Source: Burkholderiales bacterium (GTDB lineage Bacteria; Pseudomonadota; Gammaproteobacteria; Burkholderiales; Ga0077523). From it: a DNA stretch of 32,700 nucleotides. The stretch is from contig JALHMS010000035.1 in the NCBI GenBank assembly GCA_022843925.1, positions 1 to 32,700 on the forward strand, written 5' to 3'. Of the stretch, positions 301 to 26,837 are shown in pieces. The notes beneath the pieces were generated by a model. It searched no databases. It was given only the letters and a program-made list of their open reading frames with translations, and had not been told where the DNA came from. A program made the translations under genes and the position numbers. Every line of letters starts with the position of its first letter. Position 1 is the first letter of the stretch.

Positions 301-1262
301 CGCCGCCGCTCGAGCCCGGGCATCCCTGGCACGCACTGGCCTGTGCGCCGGCGCGCGATGCCGCGGCGGTGTCGTCGGGCAGCCTGCAGTGGGAGGTCGA
401 TGGTGCCCACTGGCCCCATCGCGAGACGAGCCGCTTCGTGAACGCCGGTGGGCGGCAATGGCACGTGCAGCGCATGGGCGCGGGCCCGGTTCTGCTCCTG
501 TTGCACGGCACCGGATCGTCGACGCATTCGTTCCGCGCACTGGCGCCGCTCCTCGCCGCGCACTTCACGGTCATCGCCCCCGATCTGCCGGGGCACGCAT
601 TCACCCAGGGCACGGATGACGCCGGTGCGGGTCTCCCCGGCATGGCGCGCGGGCTCGCGCAACTGCTGCGGGTCCTCGACGTCCGACCCGTCGTCGCGGT
701 GGGGCACTCCGCGGGTGCCGCGATCCTGGCCCGCATGTGTCTCGATGGCCGGATCGCGCCTGCGCTCGTCGTGTCGCTGAACGGCGCGTTGCTGCCCTGG
801 CGCGGCATCGCCGGCCATGTGTTCCGCCCGCTGGCGCAGATCCTCGCCGCGACGCCCTTCGCACACCGTCTCTTCGCGCGCCGCGCCGCCGACCGCGCGG
901 CCGTGGAGCGTCTGATTGCCGGCACCGGATCGCGGCTCGATCGCGAGGGTGTCGATCTCTACGCGCGGCTGACCCGCAATCCGGGTCACGTGGCCGGGGC
1001 GCTTCGCATGATGGCGGCCTGGGACCTCGTGCCGCTCGCGCGCGACCTGCCACGCCTGTCCCAGCCGCTCGTGCTGGTGGCCGGCAGCCGCGACGCCACG
1101 GTGCCGCCGGACCAGGCCCGTGACGTGGCCGCCCTGCTGCCGAGCGCCCGCATCGTCCCGCTGCCCGGCCTCGGCCATCTGGCCCACGAAGAGGCGCCGG
1201 ATACCGTTGCCGCGCTCCTGCTCGACCTCGCCTGCCACGCCACCGGGCGGGCCCACACATGA
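297..1262 (+). CDS. bchO: Alpha/beta hydrolase, magnesium-chelatase accessory protein BchO
   Basis: A 321-residue alpha/beta-hydrolase-fold protein. The sequence shows the oxyanion segment [15 protein letters not shown], the following APDLPGH strand-turn, the nucleophile elbow GHSAG (Ser138), and near the C terminus [14 protein letters not shown] and GLGHLAHEE, which carry the expected acid and histidine. BchO is found next to bchD in many photosynthesis gene clusters and is named as a putative Mg-chelatase accessory hydrolase. Its substrate is not settled, so the role here is by position and family. The start ATG overlaps the bchD stop by 4 bases. A 73-base gap with no visible promoter separates it from dxs. 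A frame extending dxs upstream into this gene exists but is a shadow. Confidence 0.9.
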
Positions 1263-1335
1263 AGACTTCGCCGCTTCGCACGCCCGATGCGCGGCGCAAC
1301 CATCAGGCCCTACGGCCCCTGGGGAGGTACCGTTC

Positions 1336-3216
1336 ATGACGTTCCAGCTGTTGTCCACCATCGACAGCCCTCAGGATCTGCGGGCGCTCCCCCGCGATGC
1401 GCTGCCGCGCCTCGCCACGGAGCTGCGCGATTTCCTGATCGAGTCGGTGGGCCGCACCGGCGGTCACCTCGCCTCGAATCTCGGTACGGTCGAGTTGACG
1501 GTCGCGCTGCATCGCGTGTTCGACACGCCTGCCGATCGCATCGTCTGGGACGTCGGGCATCAGTCGTATGCGCACAAGATCCTCACGGGTCGGCGCGAAG
1601 GCATGGGGCGGCTGCGCATGCTGGGCGGACTCTCGGGATTCCCCAAGCGCAGCGAGTCGCCCTTCGACGCCTTCGGGACCGCGCACTCGAGCACTTCGAT
1701 CAGCGCAGCGCTGGCGATGGCGGTGGCGGCGAAGCGCCGCGGCGACGGCCATCAGGCGATCGCGGTGATCGGTGACGGCGCGATGTCCGCAGGCCTCGCC
1801 TACGAGGCGCTGAACAATGCGGGCACGATGAACGCCGATCTGCTCGTGATCCTGAACGACAACGAGATGTCGATCTCGCCGGCGGTCGGTGCCATGCATC
1901 GCCTCCTCGGCCGGCTCACCAGCGGCGCGCCGATCGTGGCTGCGCGGAAGTCCGCCGAGCGCCTCATCGGCCGGTTCCCGCCGCTGCGTCGTCTCGCGGA
2001 TCGCGTGGATGTCGAGGCGAAGGGCATGGTGCTGCCCGCGACGATGTTCGAACAGCTCGGCTTCGAGTACACGGGGCCGGTGGACGGTCACGACCTCGGC
2101 GGCCTCCTGGCGACCCTCGAGACCCTCCGCGGTCAGTCCGGGCCCCGCCTGCTGCACATCGTCACGCGGAAAGGCTGCGGCTACGAGCGTGCCGAGGCGG
2201 ATCCGGTCCTGTACCACGGCGTTTCCAAGTTCGAGCCCGGCGCCGGGATCGGCCCCTCGCGGCCCGCGGCGGTTCCGACCTACACGCAGGTGTTCGGCGA
2301 GTGGTTGTGCGACGCGGCCGCCGCCGACGATCGCGTGATGGCGATCACGCCGGCGATGCGCGAAGGGTCAGGTCTCGTGGGCTTCTCGAAGCGGTTCCCC
2401 GATTGTCACTTCGACGTGGGCATCGCCGAGCAGCACGCGGTCACGTTCGCCGCCGGCCTTGCGTGCGAGGGCCTGAAGCCCGTCGTGGCGATCTACTCGA
2501 CGTTCCTGCAGCGCGCCTACGACCAGCTGATCCACGATGTGCAGATCCAGAATCTGCCGGTGCTGTTCGCGATCGATCGGGCCGGCCTCGCCGGGGCCGA
2601 CGGCGCGACCCACCACGGCGCGTTCGACCTCTCGTATCTGCGGTGCATCCCCAACCTCGTGGTGATGGTGCCGTCCGACGAGAATCTCTGTCGGCAGATG
2701 CTCGCCACCGGTCTTGCGCACGACGGCCCGGCCGCGGTGCGGTATCCGCGCGGTGCCGGCGTCGGTGTTCCGGTCGAACGCGATGTCCGCACGCTGCCGA
2801 TCGGGCGCGGCGACATCCGCCGCACGGGCCGGCGCGTCGCGATCCTCGCCTTCGGGCCGCTGCTCCACGCGGCGCTCGAAGCCGCGGAGACGCTCGACGC
2901 CAGCGTCGTCGACATGCGCTTCGTGAAACCGCTGGACGACGCGCTCGTGGCGCACATGGCGCGCTCGCACGACCTCATCGTGACCCTCGAGGACAACGCG
3001 ATCCAGGGCGGCGCAGGCAGTGCGGTGGCCGAGAGCCTCCACGCGCAGGGCATCGATGCGCGTCTGCTGCATCTCGGGTTGCCGGACGAATTCGTCGATC
3101 ACGGCGAGCAGTCGGTCCTGCTGTCGCGGCTCGGACTCGATGCGACAGGGATCGTCGCCTCGGTCCGCAGCCGCATCCCGTCGGCAGGGCGGGTCGTCCG
3201 GGTGCAGACAGCATGA
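1336..3216 (+). CDS. dxs: 1-deoxy-D-xylulose-5-phosphate synthase
   Basis: A 626-residue thiamine-diphosphate enzyme of normal family length. It condenses pyruvate and glyceraldehyde-3-phosphate to DXP, the entry step of the MEP isoprenoid pathway. Visible motifs are [10 protein letters not shown] (His75, His80), the ThDP/Mg motif GDGAMSAG (from residue 146) followed by NDNEMSIS, the catalytic-Glu motif [17 protein letters not shown] (Glu365), and [18 protein letters not shown] of the transketolase pyrimidine domain. The frame is open further upstream, but ATG 1336 is preferred. It has a GGGGAGG ribosome-binding site at 1321-1327, it begins the family-typical N terminus, and a longer version would overlap bchO. 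The stop overlaps crtI (ATGA). Placement inside the carotenoid operon couples precursor supply to pigment synthesis; a second housekeeping dxs elsewhere is possible but not visible. Confidence 0.96.
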
Positions 3217-4754
3217 TGAACGGCGCCCCCCCCGAAGTGATGGCAACGGAGACGGCCGCATTCCTGCGTGGTCGTCGGCACGCAGTGGTCATCGGCAGCG
3301 GCTTCGGCGGTCTCGCCGCCGCCGTGCGGCTCGGCGCACGCGGCTATGCCGTGACGGTGCTGGAACGGCTCGATCAGGCCGGCGGCCGCGCGAACGTCTT
3401 CCGTCAGGACGGCTTCACGTTCGACGCCGGTCCGACGATCGTCACCGCGCCGTTCCTGTTCGAGGAACTCTGGACGCTGTGCGGGAAACGTCTCGCCGAC
3501 GACGTCGACCTGCGATCGCTGTCCCCCTTCTATCGCCTGCGCTACGACGACGGCAGCCATCTCGACTGCTCGGGCGATGCCGCGGAGATGCGCGCCGAGG
3601 TGGCGCGGCTCTCCCCCGGTGACGTCGAGGGTTACGAGCGCTTCATGGAGGCTGCGGAGGCCATCTATCGCGTCGGCTTCGAGGAGCTGGGCGACGTGCC
3701 CTTCGACTCCTGGACCGACATGGCGCGCATCGTCCCCAAGATGCTCAAACTGGGCAGCCTGCACAGCCTCCACAGCCTGGTCTCGAAGTACGTGCGCGAT
3801 CCGCGGCTGCAGATCGCGTCGAGCTTCCATCCGCTGTTCGTCGGCGGCAACCCGTTCACGGTCACTTCGATCTACGGCCTCATCGCGTTTCTCGAGCGTC
3901 GCTGGGGCGTCCACTTCGCGATGGGTGGCACCGGGCGGCTCGTCGACGGTCTCGTCAAGCTGATGCAGGGGCAGGGCGGCCGATTGCGCCTGAACGCGGA
4001 GGTCGCCGAGATTCTCGTGGAAGGGCGGCGCGCCACCGGCGTCCGCCTCGCCTCGGGCGAGACCATTCCCGCCGATGTCGTGGTCTCGAACGCCGACGCC
4101 GCCTGGACGTACGGCAAGCTGCTGAAGACCGTGCCGAGACGCACCTGGACCGACCGCAAGCTGAAGCGTGCCCGCTACTCGATGTCGCTGTTCGTCTGGT
4201 ACTTCGGCACGAAGCGCCGCTACGAGGACGTCCCGCACCACACGATCGTGCTCGGGCCGCGGTACAAGGGCCTGCTGACCGACATCTTCGAGAATCGCAA
4301 GCTCGCCGACGACTTCAGCTTGTACCTGCATCGGCCCACGGCCACCGACCCGTCGCTGGCGCCGGACGGATGCGACGCGTTCTACGTGCTCTCACCGGTG
4401 CCTCATCTGGATGCCGACGTCGACTGGGCGACGCGTGCGGAGCCGTATCGTCGCGCCATCGCGCAACGGCTGGAGGAGACCATGCTCCCGGGTCTCGAGG
4501 CCGAGGTGATCTCGTCCCGCGTCATGACACCGCTCGACTTCCGCGACCGCCTGCTCTCGTACAAGGGCGCCGCCTTCGGCATGGAACCGGTGCTCACGCA
4601 GAGCGCGTGGTTCCGTCCGCACAACCGCAGCGAGGACGTCGACGGCCTGTATCTCGTGGGTGCGGGTACGCATCCCGGCGCAGGTCTCCCCGGCGTTCTC
4701 TCCTCCGCACGCATCCTCGACACGGTGGTTCCCCATGCCGACGCGCTCGTCTGA
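3213..4754 (+). CDS. crtI: Phytoene desaturase CrtI
   Basis: A 513-residue FAD-dependent desaturase that converts phytoene to neurosporene and/or lycopene. The number of desaturation steps cannot be read from the sequence. The N terminus carries the dinucleotide-binding fold ([12 protein letters not shown] at about residues 25-36, then [12 protein letters not shown]), followed by [20 protein letters not shown]. The C terminus has the CrtI-type signature [28 protein letters not shown] 3213 overlaps the dxs stop by 4 bases; ATGs at 3216 and 3240 are alternatives and would not affect the FAD fold. Its last 20 bases overlap crtB in another frame. Its product flows to CrtC, CrtD and CrtF encoded nearby. 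It is distinguished from CrtD by gene position and end motif. Confidence 0.96.
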
Positions 4755-6023: not shown

Positions 6024-6965
6024 TCAGGCTTCGGATCGGTGTTTCCGGATCCTGAACGGCAGCAGCCTCTGCACCCAGCCGCTGGCGAAGCGTTCCATCG
6101 ACAGGCTTTCATGCACGGCGACGGTGTCCGCGCCAAAGAGGCGTGTCCCGACCAGCGATCGGGCGTAGAACGGCGTGTCCTCCAGGGTCTTCACCACCGT
6201 GGCGCCTTGCGGGGACTCCGAGCGTGCGCGCCGTTGCACCCGCCAACCCGTCGTCGGCAGCCCGCCCAGGGCGGGCGGATCGAAGGTCGTGGTGTTGCCG
6301 TCGGCTGCGACGTGCAGTGCGACACCGTGCGTCGTTCCGTCGCGCTCGATCGTGTCGTACAGCAGGGCTGCTGCGCCGTCCGGCAGCGGCGCGCGGCACC
6401 AGTCCCAGCCGCGGAACGTGTTCTCCAGCGCGCAGTCTCCCGAGTTCGAATCGAGATAGGCCGTCCCCGACCACGCGAGCGACGGATGCGTGAACTGCAC
6501 GTCGACCCGGGAGGCGGGGGCGATCGGATGCCAGCGATGGTCGCCATTCGCGTCGAGCGGATACGTGCGGTCGCGCGGCGCGGTCGTGTCGATCGTCACG
6601 CGACCGCGCAACCGTCGGGGCAACGGCACGCCGATCTCGTCGATGTCGATGACGAGCTTCCGGCCATCCCAGTGGAGGGCACTCGGGCCGACGCGAAACC
6701 GGTTGGCCGTGCGCTCCACGGTGCCGCGTTCGCGCTCCGCCAGCGCCCACCGACCCCCGGGCCCGTAGATCGCCACGTTGAAGGCGCAGTGGTTCATGGG
6801 GTCGCCAGCGCCACGCCTTCGCGCTCGCGCGTACCAGGGCGAGAAGACACTGCCGATGAACGCGATGATCGTGAGCCCGTGGCGCCCGTCGTCCGAGAGG
6901 GCGTCGACATACCACCAGCGATAGCCGTTCCGCGGCACGGGTCGCAGGAAGCCGAGATCGTCCAT
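6024..6965 (-). CDS. crtC: Carotenoid 1,2-hydratase (hydroxyneurosporene synthase) CrtC
   Basis: A 313-residue protein that adds water across the terminal double bond of neurosporene or lycopene, the first step toward spheroidene or spirilloxanthin. Recognisable segments are the N terminus GYRWWYVDALSDDGRHGLTIIAFIGSVFSPWY, HCAFNVAIYG, and FRGWDWCRAPLPDG with YDTIERDG in the middle. All fit the CrtC (AttH-like lipocalin fold) family. The start at 6965 lies one base after the crtD stop, so the two form a crtD-crtC unit read toward the left. It converges on the small ORF ending at 5996 with only 27 bases between, and no clear hairpin terminator is seen there. Length is between the shorter Rhodobacter and longer Rubrivivax proteins. 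Confidence 0.93.
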   Translation of the reverse strand: MDDLGFLRPVPRNGYRWWYVDALSDDGRHGLTIIAFIGSVFSPWYARARRRGAGDPMNHCAFNVAIYGPGGRWALAERERGTVERTANRFRVGPSALHWDGRKLVIDIDEIGVPLPRRLRGRVTIDTTAPRDRTYPLDANGDHRWHPIAPASRVDVQFTHPSLAWSGTAYLDSNSGDCALENTFRGWDWCRAPLPDGAAALLYDTIERDGTTHGVALHVAADGNTTTFDPPALGGLPTTGWRVQRRARSESPQGATVVKTLEDTPFYARSLVGTRLFGADTVAVHESLSMERFASGWVQRLLPFRIRKHRSEA

Positions 6966-6966
6966 G

Positions 6967-8457
6967 TCAGCGCCCGGCCTTCAGCACCGCGGCAGCGGCG
7001 TGCCGGCCGGAGAGGGTCGCCATCGGGACGCCCGGTCCGGGATGCACGCTCCCGCCCGCCAGGAACAGGCCGGGCAGCCGGGTCGTCGCGCCGGAGCGGT
7101 CGAACGCCGACGTCCATCCGTGCGGCGCCGAGCCGTACAGCGCGCCACCCGAGGCGGGGAAGAGCCGCTCGAACCCGGCGGGCCCGGTCACCACGGGTGG
7201 GCCCGTCGGTGTCAGTTCCAGGCCGCAACGGGCGAGCAGCGCGAACATGCCGGCCTCGCACCGGGCGATGGCCGGTTCCCCCGGCGTCGATTCGTCGCCG
7301 GATGCCGGCGCGTTCACGAGCAGGAAGAGTCTCTCGGGCCCTGCCGGGCCGCCGCCGTTGCGGCCGTCGCGGTCCTGCGCGCACACGTACACGGTGGGGT
7401 CCACGGGCAGGCGCCGCTGGCGGAGGAGATCGTCGAACTCGGCGGCGTAGTCGCGCGAGAAGAACACGGTGTGGCGCGACAGCGGCAGCCCGGACGTGCG
7501 TGCCGTCATCGCCCACGTGAGCGCCGAGAGCGAGCGCTTCGCGCGGGGCCGTGGTGGCGGGACGGCCCGCCGGGCCGCCGGTCCGAGGCGCCCGGTGCCG
7601 AGCGCTGCGATGTCGCCGTTGAACACGACGGCGTCGGCATCGATGTGCTCGCCGTCGGCCAGGGTCACGCCGTTCACGCGCCCGCCGCCCGCCGTGATGT
7701 CCGCGACCTCCGCGCCGTAGCGGAACCGTGCCCCACGCTGCATGGCCAGCGCAGCGATCGCGTCGGCCAGTCGCTGCATCCCGCCACGCACCGCCCAGAC
7801 GCCTTCCTGCTCCACGTGCGCGATCAGCATCAGCGTCGCCGACGCGAGGAAGGGCGACCCGCCGCAATAGGTCGCGTAGCGCCCGAACAACTGTCGCAGT
7901 CGCGGATCCTGCAGATGGTCCGACAGCGCCTGCCAGAGCGTCGCGAAGGGGCGCATGCGGAGGAGATCCGGAACGCCGCGAAGTCCCGCATCCCGCACCA
8001 GCGTGAGCGGCGTGGGCTGCGCTGCGTGCAGGTAGGTGCGGTCGAGCGCCTGGAAGGTGCGCCGCGCCGCGGTCATGAACGCGAGGTAGCCGCGCGCCTC
8101 CGCGGGCCCGGCGAACTCGCCGATGGCCTCGGCGGACTGGCGGAGGTCGGCGTGGAGGTCGAGCGTCTCGCCCGCGCTCCACGCGTGCCGGGCGAGGATC
8201 GGCAGGGGATCGATCGCGATGTGTTCTTCGAGCGAGCTGCCGGCCGCGGCGAAGAGCCCGTCGAAGATCGACCGCATCGTGAAGACCGTCGGCCCCGCAT
8301 CGATCGCGACGCCGTCGACCGGTACCTCGCGCATCTTGCCGCCGTGGGTCGCGCCACGCTCCAGCACGAGCACGTCACAGCCCCGCGCCGCCAGTTCGAG
8401 CGCCGCCGCGAGCCCCCCCATGCCTGCGCCCACCACGATCACACGTCTATCCCGCAC
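6967..8457 (-). CDS. crtD: Hydroxy-/methoxyneurosporene desaturase CrtD
   Basis: A 496-residue FAD desaturase of the CrtI superfamily that introduces the C3,4 double bond in hydroxylated/methoxylated carotenoids. The N terminus has VIVVGAGMGGLAAALELAARG and VLERGATHGGKM, followed by AIDAGPTVFTM. The C terminus has LFLAGGSVHPGPGVPMATLSGRHAA, typical of CrtD. The frame continues upstream, but that extension crosses a promoter and operator block, so GTG at 8457 is chosen. It gives VRDRRVIVVGAG directly before the FAD fold and a normal family length, with a weak GGCGGA ribosome-binding site about 6-7 bases upstream. The predicted transcript begins near 8496 and has a leader of about 40 bases. It is translated just ahead of crtC. 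Confidence 0.93.
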   Translation of the reverse strand: MRDRRVIVVGAGMGGLAAALELAARGCDVLVLERGATHGGKMREVPVDGVAIDAGPTVFTMRSIFDGLFAAAGSSLEEHIAIDPLPILARHAWSAGETLDLHADLRQSAEAIGEFAGPAEARGYLAFMTAARRTFQALDRTYLHAAQPTPLTLVRDAGLRGVPDLLRMRPFATLWQALSDHLQDPRLRQLFGRYATYCGGSPFLASATLMLIAHVEQEGVWAVRGGMQRLADAIAALAMQRGARFRYGAEVADITAGGGRVNGVTLADGEHIDADAVVFNGDIAALGTGRLGPAARRAVPPPRPRAKRSLSALTWAMTARTSGLPLSRHTVFFSRDYAAEFDDLLRQRRLPVDPTVYVCAQDRDGRNGGGPAGPERLFLLVNAPASGDESTPGEPAIARCEAGMFALLARCGLELTPTGPPVVTGPAGFERLFPASGGALYGSAPHGWTSAFDRSGATTRLPGLFLAGGSVHPGPGVPMATLSGRHAAAAVLKAGR

Positions 8458-8481: not shown

Positions 8482-8510
8482 TTGACCGGCCAACGAACGG
8501 TGTCTATAGT
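8482..8510 (+). promoter_or_regulatory. Predicted sigma70-type promoter for crtE-crtF, overlapping the crtD promoter
   Basis: Reading rightward: -35 TTGACC (8482-8487), exactly 17 bases, then -10 TATAGT (8505-8510). It uses the same palindromic CTATAG core (8504-8509) as the leftward crtD promoter, so RNA polymerase should not occupy both at once. The transcript would carry a leader of roughly 230 bases before crtE, holding a hairpin and a tandem repeat. Confidence 0.62.
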
Positions 8511-8543
8511 ACCTGACACATGCACTGACAACAGAACGTGACA
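8501..8543. promoter_or_regulatory. Paired PpsR/CrtJ-type operator between crtD and crtE
   Basis: A perfect TGT-N12-ACA palindrome spans 8501-8518. A near match, TGA-N12-ACA, spans 8526-8543, 7 bases further on. PpsR/CrtJ, the aerobic repressor of photosynthesis genes, recognises TGT-N12-ACA and typically binds paired sites about one turn apart. The first site covers the -10 shared by both divergent promoters; the second covers the crtD -35. Site match is seen; binding is inferred. Confidence 0.78.
8503..8531 (-). promoter_or_regulatory. Predicted sigma70-type promoter for crtD-crtC
   Basis: Reading leftward: -35 TTGTCA (complement of 8526-8531), exactly 17 bases, then -10 TATAGA (complement of 8503-8508). 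Both hexamers are close to consensus and the spacing is ideal. Transcription would start near 8496, about 40 bases before the crtD GTG. The -10 sits inside one TGT-N12-ACA site and the -35 inside a near-match second site, so PpsR/CrtJ-type repression is expected. Confidence 0.72.
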
Positions 8544-8604: not shown

Positions 8605-8632
8605 ACGGGGTGATCCAGCGCGGTGCCCAGGG

Positions 8633-8675
8633 TTGAACGCAGTCGGCGACAGTTTTGAACGAAGTCGGCGACAGT
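8633..8675. repeat. Tandem direct repeat (2 x 21 bp) upstream of crtE
   Basis: Two copies of a 21-base unit (TTGAACGCAGTCGGCGACAGT, and the same with A for the second C) occupy 8633-8653 and 8655-8675, a 22-bp period with one mismatch. They lie in the crtE leader, 70 bases before its start. Multiple short subterminal repeats of this size are seen at ends of IS21-family elements, so this may be a relic end. No transposase gene is nearby. An iteron-like protein site is the alternative. Confidence 0.6.
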
Positions 8676-8744: not shown

Positions 8745-9614
8745 ATGGACGGCACGAGGCGCATCGAATCGGTCCTGGAAGCCGCAGTCGCCAGCGTGCA
8801 GGGACGGAGGTGTCCTCCCGGACTCGCCGCCGCCGTGCAGCACGCCGTCTTTCCCGGCGGCGCGCGGATCCGCCCGCGCCTTTGCATGGCCGTGGCCGGT
8901 GCCTGCGGCAATCCCGATTCGCCGGTGGCCGACGCCGCAGGGGCGTCCATCGAGCTGCTGCACTGCGCCTCGCTCGTCCACGACGATCTGCCGTGCTTCG
9001 ACGATGCCGCGACCCGGCGCGGACGCCCTTCCGTGCACCGTGCCTTCGGTGAGCGTCTCGCCGTGCTGGCGGGCGACGCGCTGATCGTGCTCGCGTTCCA
9101 GACCCTCGCGCGCGGCGCAGCTTCGGCGCCCCAACACCTCGTTCCCCTGCTGGAGACCGTCGCCGCCGCGACGGGGATGCCCGGCGGGATCGTCGCCGGA
9201 CAGGCCTGGGAGTGCGAGCCCGAGGTGGCCCTCGACGTCTATCAACAGGAGAAGACCGGCTCCCTGTTCACCGCGGCGGCCGTCGCCGGCGCGCAGGCCG
9301 TGGGTGCCGACGGCACGCCATGGCGGCTGTTCGGCGACCGCCTCGGCGAGGCCTACCAGGTGGCCGACGACATCCGCGACGTGCTCGCCGAACCCGAGGA
9401 TCTCGGCAAACCGTGCGGTCGCGATGCCGCGCTGCATCGCCCGAGCGCTGCCCAGACCTTCGGGGTCACGGGCGCCATCGACCACTTCCGGCGTCTCGTG
9501 AACGATTCCATCGAGGCGATTCCGGCGTGTCGCGGCTCAGCGCAGTTGCGTGCGCTCATCCTGCTCGAGGCGCAGCGATTGCTGCCGGAGCAGCTCACGC
9601 GGCGCGCGGCGTAA
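8745..9614 (+). CDS. crtE: Geranylgeranyl diphosphate synthase CrtE
   Basis: A 289-residue trans-prenyltransferase that extends farnesyl diphosphate or smaller allylic diphosphates with IPP to GGPP. GGPP is the substrate of phytoene synthase and the precursor for the bacteriochlorophyll tail. The first aspartate-rich motif is HDDLPCFDDAATRRGRP (Asp80/81 and 86/87), the second is DDIRD at residues 208-212, and QEKTGSLF lies between them as expected. ATG 8745 is chosen because AAAGGAG at 8732-8738 lies 6 bases upstream; a longer frame begins inside the repeat region and is unlikely. It is the first gene of the rightward crtEF-bch-puf superoperon, and crtF starts 7 bases after its stop. Confidence 0.95.
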   Translation: MDGTRRIESVLEAAVASVQGRRCPPGLAAAVQHAVFPGGARIRPRLCMAVAGACGNPDSPVADAAGASIELLHCASLVHDDLPCFDDAATRRGRPSVHRAFGERLAVLAGDALIVLAFQTLARGAASAPQHLVPLLETVAAATGMPGGIVAGQAWECEPEVALDVYQQEKTGSLFTAAAVAGAQAVGADGTPWRLFGDRLGEAYQVADDIRDVLAEPEDLGKPCGRDAALHRPSAAQTFGVTGAIDHFRRLVNDSIEAIPACRGSAQLRALILLEAQRLLPEQLTRRAA

Positions 9615-9621
9615 CGCGGTC

Positions 9622-10785
9622 ATGGCAAGGATCGAGGCCCCGGCGGTATCGATGCCCCGCGGACCTGCGTCTGCGACCTGGGGAGACGGGTTCCTTCGAC
9701 TGCGCAACCGCCTCCTGGCGAACCCCGCATTCCAGCGGGCCGCGGCGCGCTTCCTCCCGACGCGATTCATCGCTCGTCGAAGGGCCCGCGAACTGTTCGA
9801 TCTCGTGGCGGGCTTCGTCTATTCGCAGGTGCTGCTCGCCTGTGTGCAACTCCGACTCCTCGAAGCGCTGGCCGACGGTCCGCGCACAGTGGCGGATCTC
9901 GCCGAGACCCTCGCTTTGCCGCACGAGGGCATGCAGCGACTGCTCTGGGCGGCCGCGTCGCTCCGCCTCGTCGAACGCCGCGGCGACGACCGCTTCGGCC
10001 TTGGGGTCCATGGCGCGGCGATGCTCGGCAATCCGGGCATCGCCGCGATGGTCGAGCACCACGGTCTTCTGTATGCGGATCTCGCCGACCCCGTGGCGCT
10101 GCTGCGAGGGCGGCGCGACCGGACGGCCCTGGGCGCGCATTGGCCCTATGCCATGGGCGGCGACCCCCGCAACCTTTCGTCGGAGCAGGTCTCGGCCTAC
10201 ACGACGCTCATGGCGGCTTCGCAGCCGCTCGTGGCGGCCGAGATCCTCGACGCCTACCCGTTCCATCGTCATCGCTGCGTCCTCGACGCGGGCGGGGGCG
10301 ATGGCAGTTTTCTCCTCTCGGTTGCCAGCCGGATACCGACCCTGCGCCTGATGCTCATCGATCTCCCCCCGGTGGCGGATCGGGCCAGGGTCCGGCTGCG
10401 GACTGCCGGACTCTCCGAACGGATGTCCGTGACCGCAGGGGACTTTCTCTCCGATGCATGGCCCGATGGGGCCGATCTCGTCACCCTCGTGCGCGTCGTG
10501 CACGACCACGACGATCCCGCAGTGCTCGAGCTGTTCCGGCGCGCCCATCGGGCGCTGCCACCCGGCGGAACCCTGCTCATCGCCGAACCCATGGCCGACA
10601 CGCCAGGGGCCGAACCGATGGGCGACGCCTACTTCGGCTTCTATCTGCTCGCCATGGGCAGCGGCCGTGCCCGCACCCCCGACGAACTGGGGGCGTTGCT
10701 GGACCGGGCCGGGTTCGATGTACCCCGCCTGCTGCCCACGCGCATGCCCCTGCAGACCCGCGTCCTGGTTGCGCGGCGGCTGTAA
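9622..10785 (+). CDS. crtF: Hydroxyneurosporene O-methyltransferase CrtF
   Basis: A 387-residue SAM-dependent O-methyltransferase that methylates the C1 hydroxyl introduced by CrtC, giving methoxy carotenoids of the spheroidene/spirilloxanthin series. The N-terminal part has an all-helical dimerisation/winged-helix pattern (ELFDLVAGFVYSQVLLAC, then VADLAETLALPHEGMQRLLWAAASL). The SAM-binding GxGxG motif is VLDAGGGDGSFLL, and VHDHDD plus LLIAEPMADTPG mark later catalytic-fold strands. ATG 9622 follows the crtE stop by 7 bases with no strong ribosome-binding site, so coupling to crtE is likely; ATG 9652 is a possible alternative. The stop is followed at once by the bchC promoter region. Confidence 0.93.
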   Translation: MARIEAPAVSMPRGPASATWGDGFLRLRNRLLANPAFQRAAARFLPTRFIARRRARELFDLVAGFVYSQVLLACVQLRLLEALADGPRTVADLAETLALPHEGMQRLLWAAASLRLVERRGDDRFGLGVHGAAMLGNPGIAAMVEHHGLLYADLADPVALLRGRRDRTALGAHWPYAMGGDPRNLSSEQVSAYTTLMAASQPLVAAEILDAYPFHRHRCVLDAGGGDGSFLLSVASRIPTLRLMLIDLPPVADRARVRLRTAGLSERMSVTAGDFLSDAWPDGADLVTLVRVVHDHDDPAVLELFRRAHRALPPGGTLLIAEPMADTPGAEPMGDAYFGFYLLAMGSGRARTPDELGALLDRAGFDVPRLLPTRMPLQTRVLVARRL

Positions 10786-10805: not shown

Positions 10806-10849
10806 TGTAAATGTACGTTGACATTTATTTGCGTAAGAATAGACTGACA
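10806..10849. promoter_or_regulatory. Paired PpsR/CrtJ-type operator upstream of bchC
   Basis: A perfect TGT-N12-ACA site lies at 10806-10823. A degenerate partner (CGT-N12-ACA) lies at 10832-10849, 8 bases further, the spacing described for the paired CrtJ sites at Rhodobacter capsulatus bchC. The first overlaps the predicted -35 and the second the -10. The arrangement implies aerobic repression of the bchC-puf part of the superoperon independent of crtEF read-through. Confidence 0.78.
10818..10845 (+). promoter_or_regulatory. Predicted sigma70-type promoter for bchCXYZ-pufBALMC
   Basis: A consensus -35 TTGACA (10818-10823) is followed after 16 bases by TAGACT (10840-10845) as a -10. The stretch is markedly AT-richer than its surroundings. 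The transcript would start near 10852 and include the 22-codon upstream ORF. It lies between crtF (ends 10785) and bchC (starts 10966), so the superoperon has an internal promoter. Confidence 0.65.
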
Positions 10850-24132: not shown

Positions 24133-25628
24133 GCGGCCTCCGCATCGGCATGGCCGGTCATCCACGCGCCTATCGTCTGGCGGTGTCGCTGGTCCGCGGG
24201 CACCACACCGGCGATGCGCCCTCGATGGAGCACGGCGATGCGGTGGGCGTGATGCAGCAGGTCGTCGAGATCCTCGGAGATCCACAGCACCGCGCTGCCG
24301 GCCTGCGCCAGCGCGAAGAGCTGGTGGTAGAGAAACGCGCTCGCGGCGAGATCCAGGCCCATCGTCGGGTGGCTCGCCACCACGAGGGCCGGTGCACCGC
24401 AGAGTTCCCGCGCCGCGACCAGCTTCTGCAGGTTGCCGCCCGACAGGCGACCGGCGGCCATGGTCGGATCCGCCGGCCGGACGTCGAAGCGCGTGAGCAG
24501 CGCGCGCGCATCGGCCTCCATGCGGCGGCGATCGGGGATGGCGGGCAGCGTGTGCAGGCGATCCAGATGCAGATTGAGCGCGAGTGGAAGGTCGGGCGCC
24601 ACCGCGTTGCGGATCGGCTGCTCGGGGATGTACGCCACGCGGCCGGCGCGAGGCGCGCGCTGCCGCGGCGCGAAGAGCGTCTCGCCGTCGACGATGACCT
24701 CGCCCGCGTCGGGCGACAGCACCCCCGCGCACGCGTCCGCCAGAACGTCCTGCCCGTGCCCCGACACGCCCGCGATGCCGAGCACCTCGCCGCGGGCGAT
24801 CCGCAGATCCACGCCGTCGATGCGGCTGCCGGGTCCGCGGGCGGACAGACCGCGGATCCAAACGCGGGTGGGCGCGTCGGCAGGGAGCGGCGCCGTCGAT
24901 GGTGCGGCGAGATCGCGCTCGCCGACCATGGTGCGCAGCAGTCTGGTGGCATCGAAATCCCGGGCGGCACCCGACGCGACGACGCGACCTCGCCGCATCA
25001 CCGCCACGCGATCGGCGCACGCCGCCACGTCGGCGAGCTTGTGCGTGATGAGGACGACCGCGAGACCGCGCGTCGCGAACCCGCGGATCAGGGACCACAG
25101 CCGGCGCACCTCGTCGTCGCCGAGAACGGCCGTGGGCTCGTCGAGAATCAGCAGACGAGGATCCTGCTGCAGCGCCTTCGCCAGTTCGACGAGCTGCATC
25201 TGACCCACGCTCAGGGACGACACCCGTGCATCCATGGGCACGTCGGGGGCGATGGCCGCGAGCGGTGCCAGACCCGCCGTCGCCCGACGCGCGCCCCGCC
25301 CGGTGAACCACGGCGTCGATGCGTGGGCGAGCGCGAGGTTCTCGCGGACGGTGAGTGCGGGGATCACGCTGAACTGCTGGAAGACCATGCCGATGCCGCT
25401 CGCCATGGCGTCTCGCGGGGAATCGATGCGGGTCGCCCTGCCGTCGATGGTGACCTGTCCGGCATCCGGTCGGTGGACACCGTAGAGCAGCTTCATCAGC
25501 GTGCTCTTGCCCGCGCCGTTCTCCCCGAGGAGCGCGAGGACCTCACCGCCGTCGACGTCGAGATCCACGCCATCCACGGCGAGGATGGCGCCGAAGCGCT
25601 TGGCGATGCTGCGGAGCTGGAGGTGCAT
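24129..25628 (-). CDS. ABC transporter ATP-binding protein with two nucleotide-binding domains
   Basis: A 499-residue tandem ATPase of the RbsA/YufO plan. The first domain has a full Walker A (GENGAGKST, about residues 36-44), signature LSVGQMQ, Walker B LLILDEPTAVL and switch THK. The second domain has the altered Walker A GVSGHGQD and signature LSGGNLQK, and lacks an intact Walker B Glu (VVASHPTMGLD). This asymmetry, with one catalytic and one degenerate site, is usual for the family. It energises the two permeases encoded next, whose genes overlap it. The 321 bases upstream separate it from the LysR gene. It is the first gene of the importer-hydrolase unit. Confidence 0.93.
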   Translation of the reverse strand: MHLQLRSIAKRFGAILAVDGVDLDVDGGEVLALLGENGAGKSTLMKLLYGVHRPDAGQVTIDGRATRIDSPRDAMASGIGMVFQQFSVIPALTVRENLALAHASTPWFTGRGARRATAGLAPLAAIAPDVPMDARVSSLSVGQMQLVELAKALQQDPRLLILDEPTAVLGDDEVRRLWSLIRGFATRGLAVVLITHKLADVAACADRVAVMRRGRVVASGAARDFDATRLLRTMVGERDLAAPSTAPLPADAPTRVWIRGLSARGPGSRIDGVDLRIARGEVLGIAGVSGHGQDVLADACAGVLSPDAGEVIVDGETLFAPRQRAPRAGRVAYIPEQPIRNAVAPDLPLALNLHLDRLHTLPAIPDRRRMEADARALLTRFDVRPADPTMAAGRLSGGNLQKLVAARELCGAPALVVASHPTMGLDLAASAFLYHQLFALAQAGSAVLWISEDLDDLLHHAHRIAVLHRGRIAGVVPADQRHRQTIGAWMTGHADAEAA

Positions 25629-25949
25629 GGCGTCGAGGGGCAGGTCTCGACATCGACGCTAGTGTCCCGACACGGAACCGGGTGTCCGATCGGGCTGCGG
25701 TTCGCGCGTCCCCCGGCGCCCGGTGTCGTGCGCCGACGCCGGACCAGCGCAGTGCTTGCTCATGGTCGAATCCTCTCCGCTCACCGATGCCGCGATTGCG
25801 ATCAATGCCTGCGAGCTTCCGTGTGGAGACACTAGAGGCGGCCGGCTGCGCCGGGTATCGCGCCATCCGTGGATCGTCGGTCACGTCATCCGCGGGGGCG
25901 GGGTGGTGGAATCCGTGAGGGTCGCAGCGCGTCCCGCTGCGCTGGCGGG
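25629..25949 (-). other. Gap between the LysR gene and the transport operon
   Basis: These 321 bases are noncoding as far as I can support. On the minus strand a 34-codon frame (25763 down to 25659) starts with ATGAGCAAGCAC behind GAGAGGA, about 8 bases away. It is rich in Arg, Pro and Gly and shows no recognisable domain, so it is left as a doubtful leader ORF. No convincing -35/-10 pair or known riboswitch fold was found, although a promoter and LysR site are expected here. Confidence 0.4.
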
Positions 25950-26837
25950 TCAGGCGCGCGGTTGAAGGGGCTGGAGAAGATCGCGCACGAGTGGGTTCGG
26001 GAATCGACGACTCGTCGTGACCGCATGGAAGCTCTCGCGGATCTCCGGGATCCGGCAGCGTTCCACCAGCACCTTGGTGCGAAGTTCGTCCTGCACGACC
26101 ACCGGTGGTACGAGAGTCACGCCGGGGGTCTCGCGCGCGAGCAGACGCAGCATCGCCATGTCGTCGACCTCCGCCAGGATCTGCGGACGGATGCCCGACC
26201 GTTCGAGTGCGAGATCGAAGGCCACGCGGATGCTGCTCTGCACGCTGGGCAGCACGACGGGTGTCGTCGCGAGATCCTCGGGAAACCGGAAGCGCTTCCG
26301 CCCGCGCACCGGCCGGCCGACGAGGCTGACGGGCTGCTCCGCGATGCGCTGGCTGTGCCATCCGGTCTCGGCGTCGCGCGGCACCGCGAGATTGGTGAGC
26401 ACGACATCGATGGTGTGCGCCGAGAGCTGGGCGAGCATCTCCCGCAGGCTGCCCGAATGGATCACCAGCTCGACGTCCTCGCGGCCCAGCAGCGGGCGCA
26501 GCAGTTCGAGCTGGAAGTTCCGCGACAGCGTCGCCACGGCGCCCACGCGCAACACCTGGCGCGCCGGGCCGCGACGACCCTGCAGGGTGCTGAGCAGCTC
26601 GTCCCCGGCGTCGAAGATGGTCTGCGCGTACCCGAGCGCGATATGGCCGGCTTCCGTGAGGACTAAGCCCCGGTGACCGCGTTCGAAGAGTGGGTGGCCC
26701 AGGCGGTCCTCGAGCTGACGGAGCTGGATGGACAGCGCGGATTGCGACACGTGGAGCGTCTCCGCCGCGCGCACGAGGCTGCCCTCCTGCGCGATCGCGC
26801 GGAAGTAGCGCAGATGGTGATAGTTGAGCTGGGGCAT
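25950..26837 (-). CDS. LysR-family transcriptional regulator
   Basis: A 295-residue regulator. The N terminus LNYHHLRYFRAIAQEGSLVRAAETLHVSQSALS, read as strand, helix-turn-helix (about residues 19-38) and recognition helix, is a clear LysR winged helix, followed by QLEDRLGHPLFERGHRGLVLTEAG. The effector domain starts near residue 92 and includes VVLTNLAVPRDAE. The YHHLRYF start resembles the NhaR-like subgroup, but the ligand is unknown. GGGAG at 26846-26850 lies 7-8 bases upstream of the start. It is encoded in the same direction just before the BMP importer operon, unlike the usual divergent layout. It is the likely regulator of that operon, responding perhaps to the imported compound. Confidence 0.92.
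   Translation of the reverse strand: MPQLNYHHLRYFRAIAQEGSLVRAAETLHVSQSALSIQLRQLEDRLGHPLFERGHRGLVLTEAGHIALGYAQTIFDAGDELLSTLQGRRGPARQVLRVGAVATLSRNFQLELLRPLLGREDVELVIHSGSLREMLAQLSAHTIDVVLTNLAVPRDAETGWHSQRIAEQPVSLVGRPVRGRKRFRFPEDLATTPVVLPSVQSSIRVAFDLALERSGIRPQILAEVDDMAMLRLLARETPGVTLVPPVVVQDELRTKVLVERCRIPEIRESFHAVTTSRRFPNPLVRDLLQPLQPRA

Follow-up and report, generated by a model that had tools for sequence, protein, structure and literature searches.

The closest described systems are the crtEF–crtDC regions of Rhodobacter sphaeroides and R. capsulatus, in which the same divergent pair of units is separated by one region bound by PpsR/CrtJ (PMC4344238, PMC5362033). In R. sphaeroides a single PpsR ChIP peak is assigned to both crtEF and crtCD, and the fold changes listed between the ppsR mutant and its parent are −8.98 for crtEF and −2.65 for crtCD (PMC4344238). 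In R. capsulatus, CrtJ peaks are present upstream of crtED in both aerobic and phototrophic cells (PMC5362033). The available portions of these two papers do not describe a shared −10 for this region (PMC4344238, PMC5362033). A related arrangement is that of the R. capsulatus bchC promoter, where two CrtJ palindromes whose starts are 26 bp apart lie over the −10 and the −35, at −4 to −21 and −30 to −47 (PMC5362033). Shared −10 elements are known from the bidirectional promoters of Escherichia coli and Salmonella (e.g. PacrA/acrR and bioA/bioB), in which the −10 is symmetric and −11A and −7T are paired (PMC12825309, PMC10268837). Among those described by Grainger's group, promoters with reciprocal −11A/−7T and an 18-bp distance between starts are the commonest (PMC10268837, PMC12825309), and the two RNAs arising from the shared −10 at acrA/acrR are repressed by one repressor, AcrR (PMC12825309). 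Such promoters are a recent finding, and their control has been investigated for a few E. coli examples; at the five E. coli promoters examined, basal activity did not suffice for competition (PMC12825309). Our literature search, largely confined to articles readable without subscription and to their main texts, found no mapped crtD or crtE starts and no description of a −10 shared by these two genes, which does not prove that there is none.

The window analysed here is a 32,700-nucleotide stretch of a Burkholderiales genome containing part of a photosynthesis gene cluster. The leftward unit begins with crtD (6967–8457, minus strand), coding for 1-hydroxycarotenoid 3,4-desaturase (NF045637, 685 bits against a cut-off of 580), with GTG at 8457 as its probable start codon. 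It is followed by a crtC-like gene for a carotenoid 1,2-hydratase (6024–6965, minus strand; start codon not settled), the product of which is 38% identical over 290 aligned positions to an annotated Roseobacter litoralis protein and has a Pfam match, Lipocalin_9, that falls below its cut-off. The rightward unit begins with a crtE-type polyprenyl diphosphate synthase gene (8745–9614, plus strand), for which the NCBIfam synthase-family matches are all below their cut-offs and the name is based on similarity, position and annotated equivalents in plasmid records. The next gene encodes a crtF-like methyltransferase (open frame 9550–10785, plus strand, with the true start further in; Pfam Methyltransf_2) that is 45% identical to the R. 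litoralis methyltransferase occupying the same position. Further to the right are bchC, bchX, bchY, bchZ, pufL and pufM, and 1120–4754, leftward of crtC, contains dxs and a phytoene desaturase gene of the crtI family.

Sequence and conservation support a good sigma-70 promoter, TTGACC-N17-TATAGT, that is predicted to drive crtE. Its −35 (8482–8487) and −10 (8505–8510), both on the plus strand, are near-consensus hexamers separated by 17 bp (within the 16–18 bp range), −11A and −7T are both present, and the predicted start is near 8517. Direct reading and a consensus scanner both report it in the window, and the pattern TTGACN-N17-TATANT occurs once in the 5.57 Mb genome, at this position, and not at all in the control. 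Among 3000 dinucleotide-shuffled versions of the intergenic region, five contained a rightward promoter (at least 5/6 matches in each hexamer, N16–18) and one contained a divergent pair with overlapping −10s. Similar promoters are found upstream of crtE in alpha-, beta- and gammaproteobacteria.

The crtE −10 is inside PpsR-type site 1 (TGTC-N10-GACA, TGTCTATAGTACCTGACA, 8501–8518), which fits the TGT-N12-ACA (TGTc-N10-gACA) palindrome of PpsR/CrtJ operators and is conserved with crtE. The original prediction was right to place a perfect TGT-N12-ACA site over the −10 core, and right about divergent crtD–crtC and crtE–crtF units separated by PpsR-type sites; the crtE promoter is conserved with the site. 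It invoked a single repressor dimer on one site, where two neighbouring sites are the more probable reading; it overlooked the imperfect PpsR-like site 2 (TGAC-N10-GACA, TGACAACAGAACGTGACA, 8526–8543). Site 2 has one mismatch (TGAC for TGTC) and begins 25 bp after site 1; in relatives the equivalent is usually at 26 bp. TGT-N12-ACA alone occurs at the chance level in the genome (495 copies vs 475 for the reversed control), and TGTC-N10-GACA is commoner than its control (64 vs 26). We consider it very likely that the crtE promoter and site 1 are functional. PpsR is encoded in the genome by two paralogues on another contig, about 5 kb apart (G000:C31:18545–19873 and 24806–26086), with TIGR02040 scores of 542.5 and 309.2 bits (cut-off 275.4), and these might act differently on the two directions. 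A further PpsR-like sequence (TGTAAATGTACGTTGACA, 10806–10823) is present upstream of bchC, as other photosynthesis gene clusters would predict.

For crtD, the original prediction proposed a leftward promoter on the same −10, with TTGTCA at 8531–8526 and TATAGA at 8508–8503 on the minus strand and the core CTATAG common to both directions. Direct reading of the window bears out the coordinates and both 17-bp spacings, and it follows from the geometry, as proposed, that RNA polymerase can sit on only one of the two promoters at a time. TATAGA lacks −7T, and by the features applied to sigma-70 promoters (−11A and −7T, 16–18 bp spacing) TTGTCA-N17-TATAGA falls short; the consensus scanner did not report it because it demands T at the last −10 position. 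CarD was considered as a helper for a promoter lacking −7T and rejected, as the sole CarD-domain match is in a 1262-aa frame that is Mfd-like in length. A second leftward register is provided by the symmetric −10 TATAGTA (TA-N3-TA, 8505–8511), which reads TATAGT rightwards and TACTAT leftwards. The segment A-N3-T is its own mirror, so the same two base pairs (A8506 and T8510) supply −11A and −7T on either strand, giving the window the reciprocal pairing that characterises bidirectional promoters. TACTAT thus carries both bases but stands 14 bp from TTGTCA. Its predicted start is near 8499, 18 bp from that of crtE; in the TATAGA register the leftward start would be near 8496 and the two starts 21 bp apart. 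Both leftward readings of the −10 fall within site 1.

We favour, with moderate confidence, a PpsR-covered bidirectional promoter between crtDC and crtEF that is strong toward crtE and weak toward crtD, both starts being predicted. Transcription of crtE would proceed from TTGACC-N17-TATAGT, with its −10 inside site 1, and crtD transcription probably starts at this −10 too, in one register or the other. The likeliest register is the opposite-strand reading of that −10 (TACTAT, 8511–8506), where leftward firing would be the weaker because TTGTCA is at a poor 14-bp spacing. As polymerase could adopt one orientation at a time, initiation events would be mutually exclusive, and PpsR on sites 1 and 2 would be expected to block it in both directions, to judge from the orthologous Rhodobacter regions. 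The unequal response of the two R. sphaeroides units is consistent with strong firing toward crtE and weak firing toward crtD, but other causes may explain it. The crtD direction has nearly the layout of bchC, with 25 bp between palindrome starts; the crtE direction is unlike bchC in that only site 1 overlaps the core promoter and the −35 is outside both palindromes.

The promoter block is well conserved within the genus. Relative to the nearest relative (L002), there are no substitutions in the 62-bp block (0/62) and 13 in the remaining 203 positions of the intergenic region (p = 0.043). All six same-genus relatives with divergent crtD and crtE have the rightward TTGAC and TATA(G/T)T, with a spacer of 17 or 18, and five of the six have the leftward TTGTCA, the exception being TAGTCA in L004. 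The expectation that relatives would keep both −35 boxes is therefore mostly borne out. TCTATA is present in 6/6 and CTATAG in 2/6. A seventh same-genus crtD (L008/L181), beside which no crtE was found, is outside this set. The nearest named relative found is the betaproteobacterial MAG Ga0077532 (L009), whose CrtD is 94% identical. One of the six (L007; L193, G007) has a crtA-like frame between crtD and the shared promoter, and the leftward transcript there would therefore begin with crtA; the CrtA assignment depends on a 150-aa stretch that matches the family weakly (46.5 bits, cut-off 300).

For a broader comparison we collected 190 crtD loci, counting the window, the genome it comes from and repeats of a single place. 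In 131 of these crtE is divergent within 1.2 kb, three have crtF there, two have crtE elsewhere on the locus, and 54 have none of these arrangements, several of the latter being short contigs. In many Burkholderiales crtD directly follows another gene, and the Sphingomonadales-type crtD/crtF pairs were set aside, being few and without a constant pattern. The 131 divergent loci comprise 117 unique regions, which form 97 clusters under 75% identity; 92 of the clusters were kept after anchoring on site 1 and five were dropped for low score. In a larger set, 220 crtE upstream regions were anchored and 199 passed the score, giving 146 clusters: 111 with crtD divergent, nine with bchO divergent, nine with bchO co-directional and 17 unassigned. 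Among the 21 loci dropped for score or the merged ones are all four with divergent crtC. The clusters, defined at 75% identity over 76 bp, do not represent independent lineages, and the conserved fractions lean upward because the anchoring matrix was trained on the same crtD–crtE sequences and low scores were dropped.

With these limits, A-N3-T is at the same place in 92 of the 111 crtD-divergent clusters, and the complete TA-N3-TA in 33. TCTATA, the plus-strand reading of the leftward −10 first proposed, is in 19/111, and CTATAG in one, the window's own, so CTATAG is not supported as a conserved core, the letters themselves being present in the window. Of the 92 crtD–crtE clusters, 90 have A at position 5 of site 1, 72 have T at position 9 and 56 have A at position 10. 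T occupies the place that mirrors position 5 in only 45/92 (p = 2.5e-15), so this A belongs to the promoter rather than to the PpsR motif. The rightward −35 (at least 5/6 matches, N16–18) is present in 48/92 clusters, and in 69/111 of the larger set. Using promoter scores with approximate sigma-70 frequencies and spacer weights, the best score exceeds the 95th percentile of shuffles in 46/92 clusters rightwards and 25/92 leftwards. The best-scoring leftward −10 is in the A-N3-T register in 33/92, the commonest place, and in the TATAGA register in 4/92, window included. A leftward TTGTCA-like element (TGACAA) is 15 bp from the A-N3-T register in 36/92 clusters and 14 bp from it in 15/92, again including the window; both spacings are short.

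There are departures from this pattern. In Rhodobacterales plasmid loci and similar genomes (L124–L127, L129, L149–L157) the site-1 −10 is mostly CAGTnT, and the plasmid loci (L149–L157) differ in this from the TATAnT type of the window; the CAGTnT elements retain −11A and −7T. In L036, L042, L051, L053, L067 and L085 (Bradyrhizobium and kin) site 1 starts two bases past a TTGACA, which is too near to be the −35 of a site-1 −10, and the best rightward promoter may be shifted there. In several Burkholderiales bchO replaces crtD as the gene divergent from crtE (L203, L204, L205, L214, L215, L218 and L221), with a similar PpsR-type site between. BchO identity was checked against the family for control loci L196 and L203 and by tblastn for the others; L215, L217 and probably L222 are anchored on their second site.

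The main alternative is that the promoter works in the crtE direction only: the leftward elements would arise incidentally from the crtE −10 and PpsR-like site 2, and the crtD promoter would be elsewhere (e.g. in the crtE leader or the first part of the coding region) or activator-dependent. The rightward −10 alone already implies A-N3-T, a point against the bidirectional reading. TTGTCA (8526–8531, minus strand) overlaps the left half of site 2 and is also found upstream of crtE where no gene diverges (3/9 bchO co-directional clusters), so it is no proof of a crtD promoter. With the crtE promoter and both sets of PpsR half-sites kept unchanged, 1024 of 20000 randomisations produced a leftward promoter of that quality (at least 5/6 and at least 4/6 matches) on the same −10, which makes the leftward half no more than mildly surprising. 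Several bchO co-directional controls (e.g. L196 and L264) have the same architecture, TTGTCA-like element included, and others (L202, L278) differ. Position-10 A is present in 63/111 crtD-divergent and 3/9 co-directional clusters (p = 0.30), the leftward −35-like element in 55/111 and 3/9 (p = 0.49), and the bchO-divergent clusters have 6/9 and 4/9, respectively. Specificity of the leftward signature for crtD-divergent loci was thus not significant in this comparison of 111 clusters with a small control of nine; the fractions lean toward the leftward elements being kept for the divergent gene but do not prove it. The crtE leader, 228 nt if transcription starts at the predicted 8517, has room for another promoter, but there is little room in most crtD–crtE loci, where the start codons are often 100–130 bp apart. 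Two further observations speak against a purely directional promoter: the best leftward promoter is in site 1 more often than in any other place, and in L193 the start of the crtA-like frame is immediately leftward of the shared promoter, as though the frame were transcribed from it. We regard the directional explanation as unlikely, but it is the one to be taken most seriously among the alternatives.

The exact scheme of the original prediction, TTGTCA-N17-TATAGA for crtD and TTGACC-N17-TATAGT for crtE with CTATAG in common, is the top-scoring leftward promoter in the window (8.0 vs 11.2 rightward), and TCTATA is present in all six same-genus relatives. Its letters and spacing stand, but its −10 has no −7T and is rarely the best register outside the window, TCTATA and CTATAG are uncommon across the clusters, and starts 21 bp apart are not at the preferred 10, 18 or 23, although small variations are allowed (PMC12825309); we consider it improbable. 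A bchC-type crtE promoter with its −35 in the right half of site 1 and its −10 in site 2 would match the R. capsulatus bchC palindromes and the 21/92 clusters with their best rightward −10 at site positions 33–35, but it is very improbable here, where that −10 place reads AACGTG (8535–8540) and the best rightward promoter has its −10 in site 1.

Returning to the bidirectional promoter that we favour, the layout is real and old, and two-way promoters with a shared −10 under one repressor are already known (acrA/acrR). The compactness that was thought unusual is a feature of published bidirectional promoters (PMC12825309, PMC10268837). The E. coli and Salmonella cases differ in that both RNAs were measured, where those of crtD and crtE are predicted, and unlike them the crtD/crtE −10 is embedded in an operator palindrome and flanked by a second. 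A stronger proposal is that a bidirectional core nested in a repressor palindrome has been kept through the alpha-, beta- and gammaproteobacteria and that a choice of polymerase orientation at each initiation, released by one repressor, sets the ratio of the late enzymes CrtD/C to the early enzyme CrtE. This is tentative and on the unlikely side, being weakened by the complete TA-N3-TA in only 33/111 clusters. If true, this would make it a bidirectional promoter of great age whose output is a metabolic ratio. A core recognisable in 92/111 clusters, in three proteobacterial classes and under a known repressor, would allow a test of selection on two-way promoters, and would also let polymerase exclusion be probed as a setter of enzyme ratio. 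If the leftward half is a by-product, the locus still shows a base-by-base fusion of the crtE promoter and the PpsR operator.

The crtE leader contains a 22-nt unit in two tandem copies that are 86% alike (8628–8671). The nearest relative, L002, has one copy, and the leader therefore varies while the promoter block does not.
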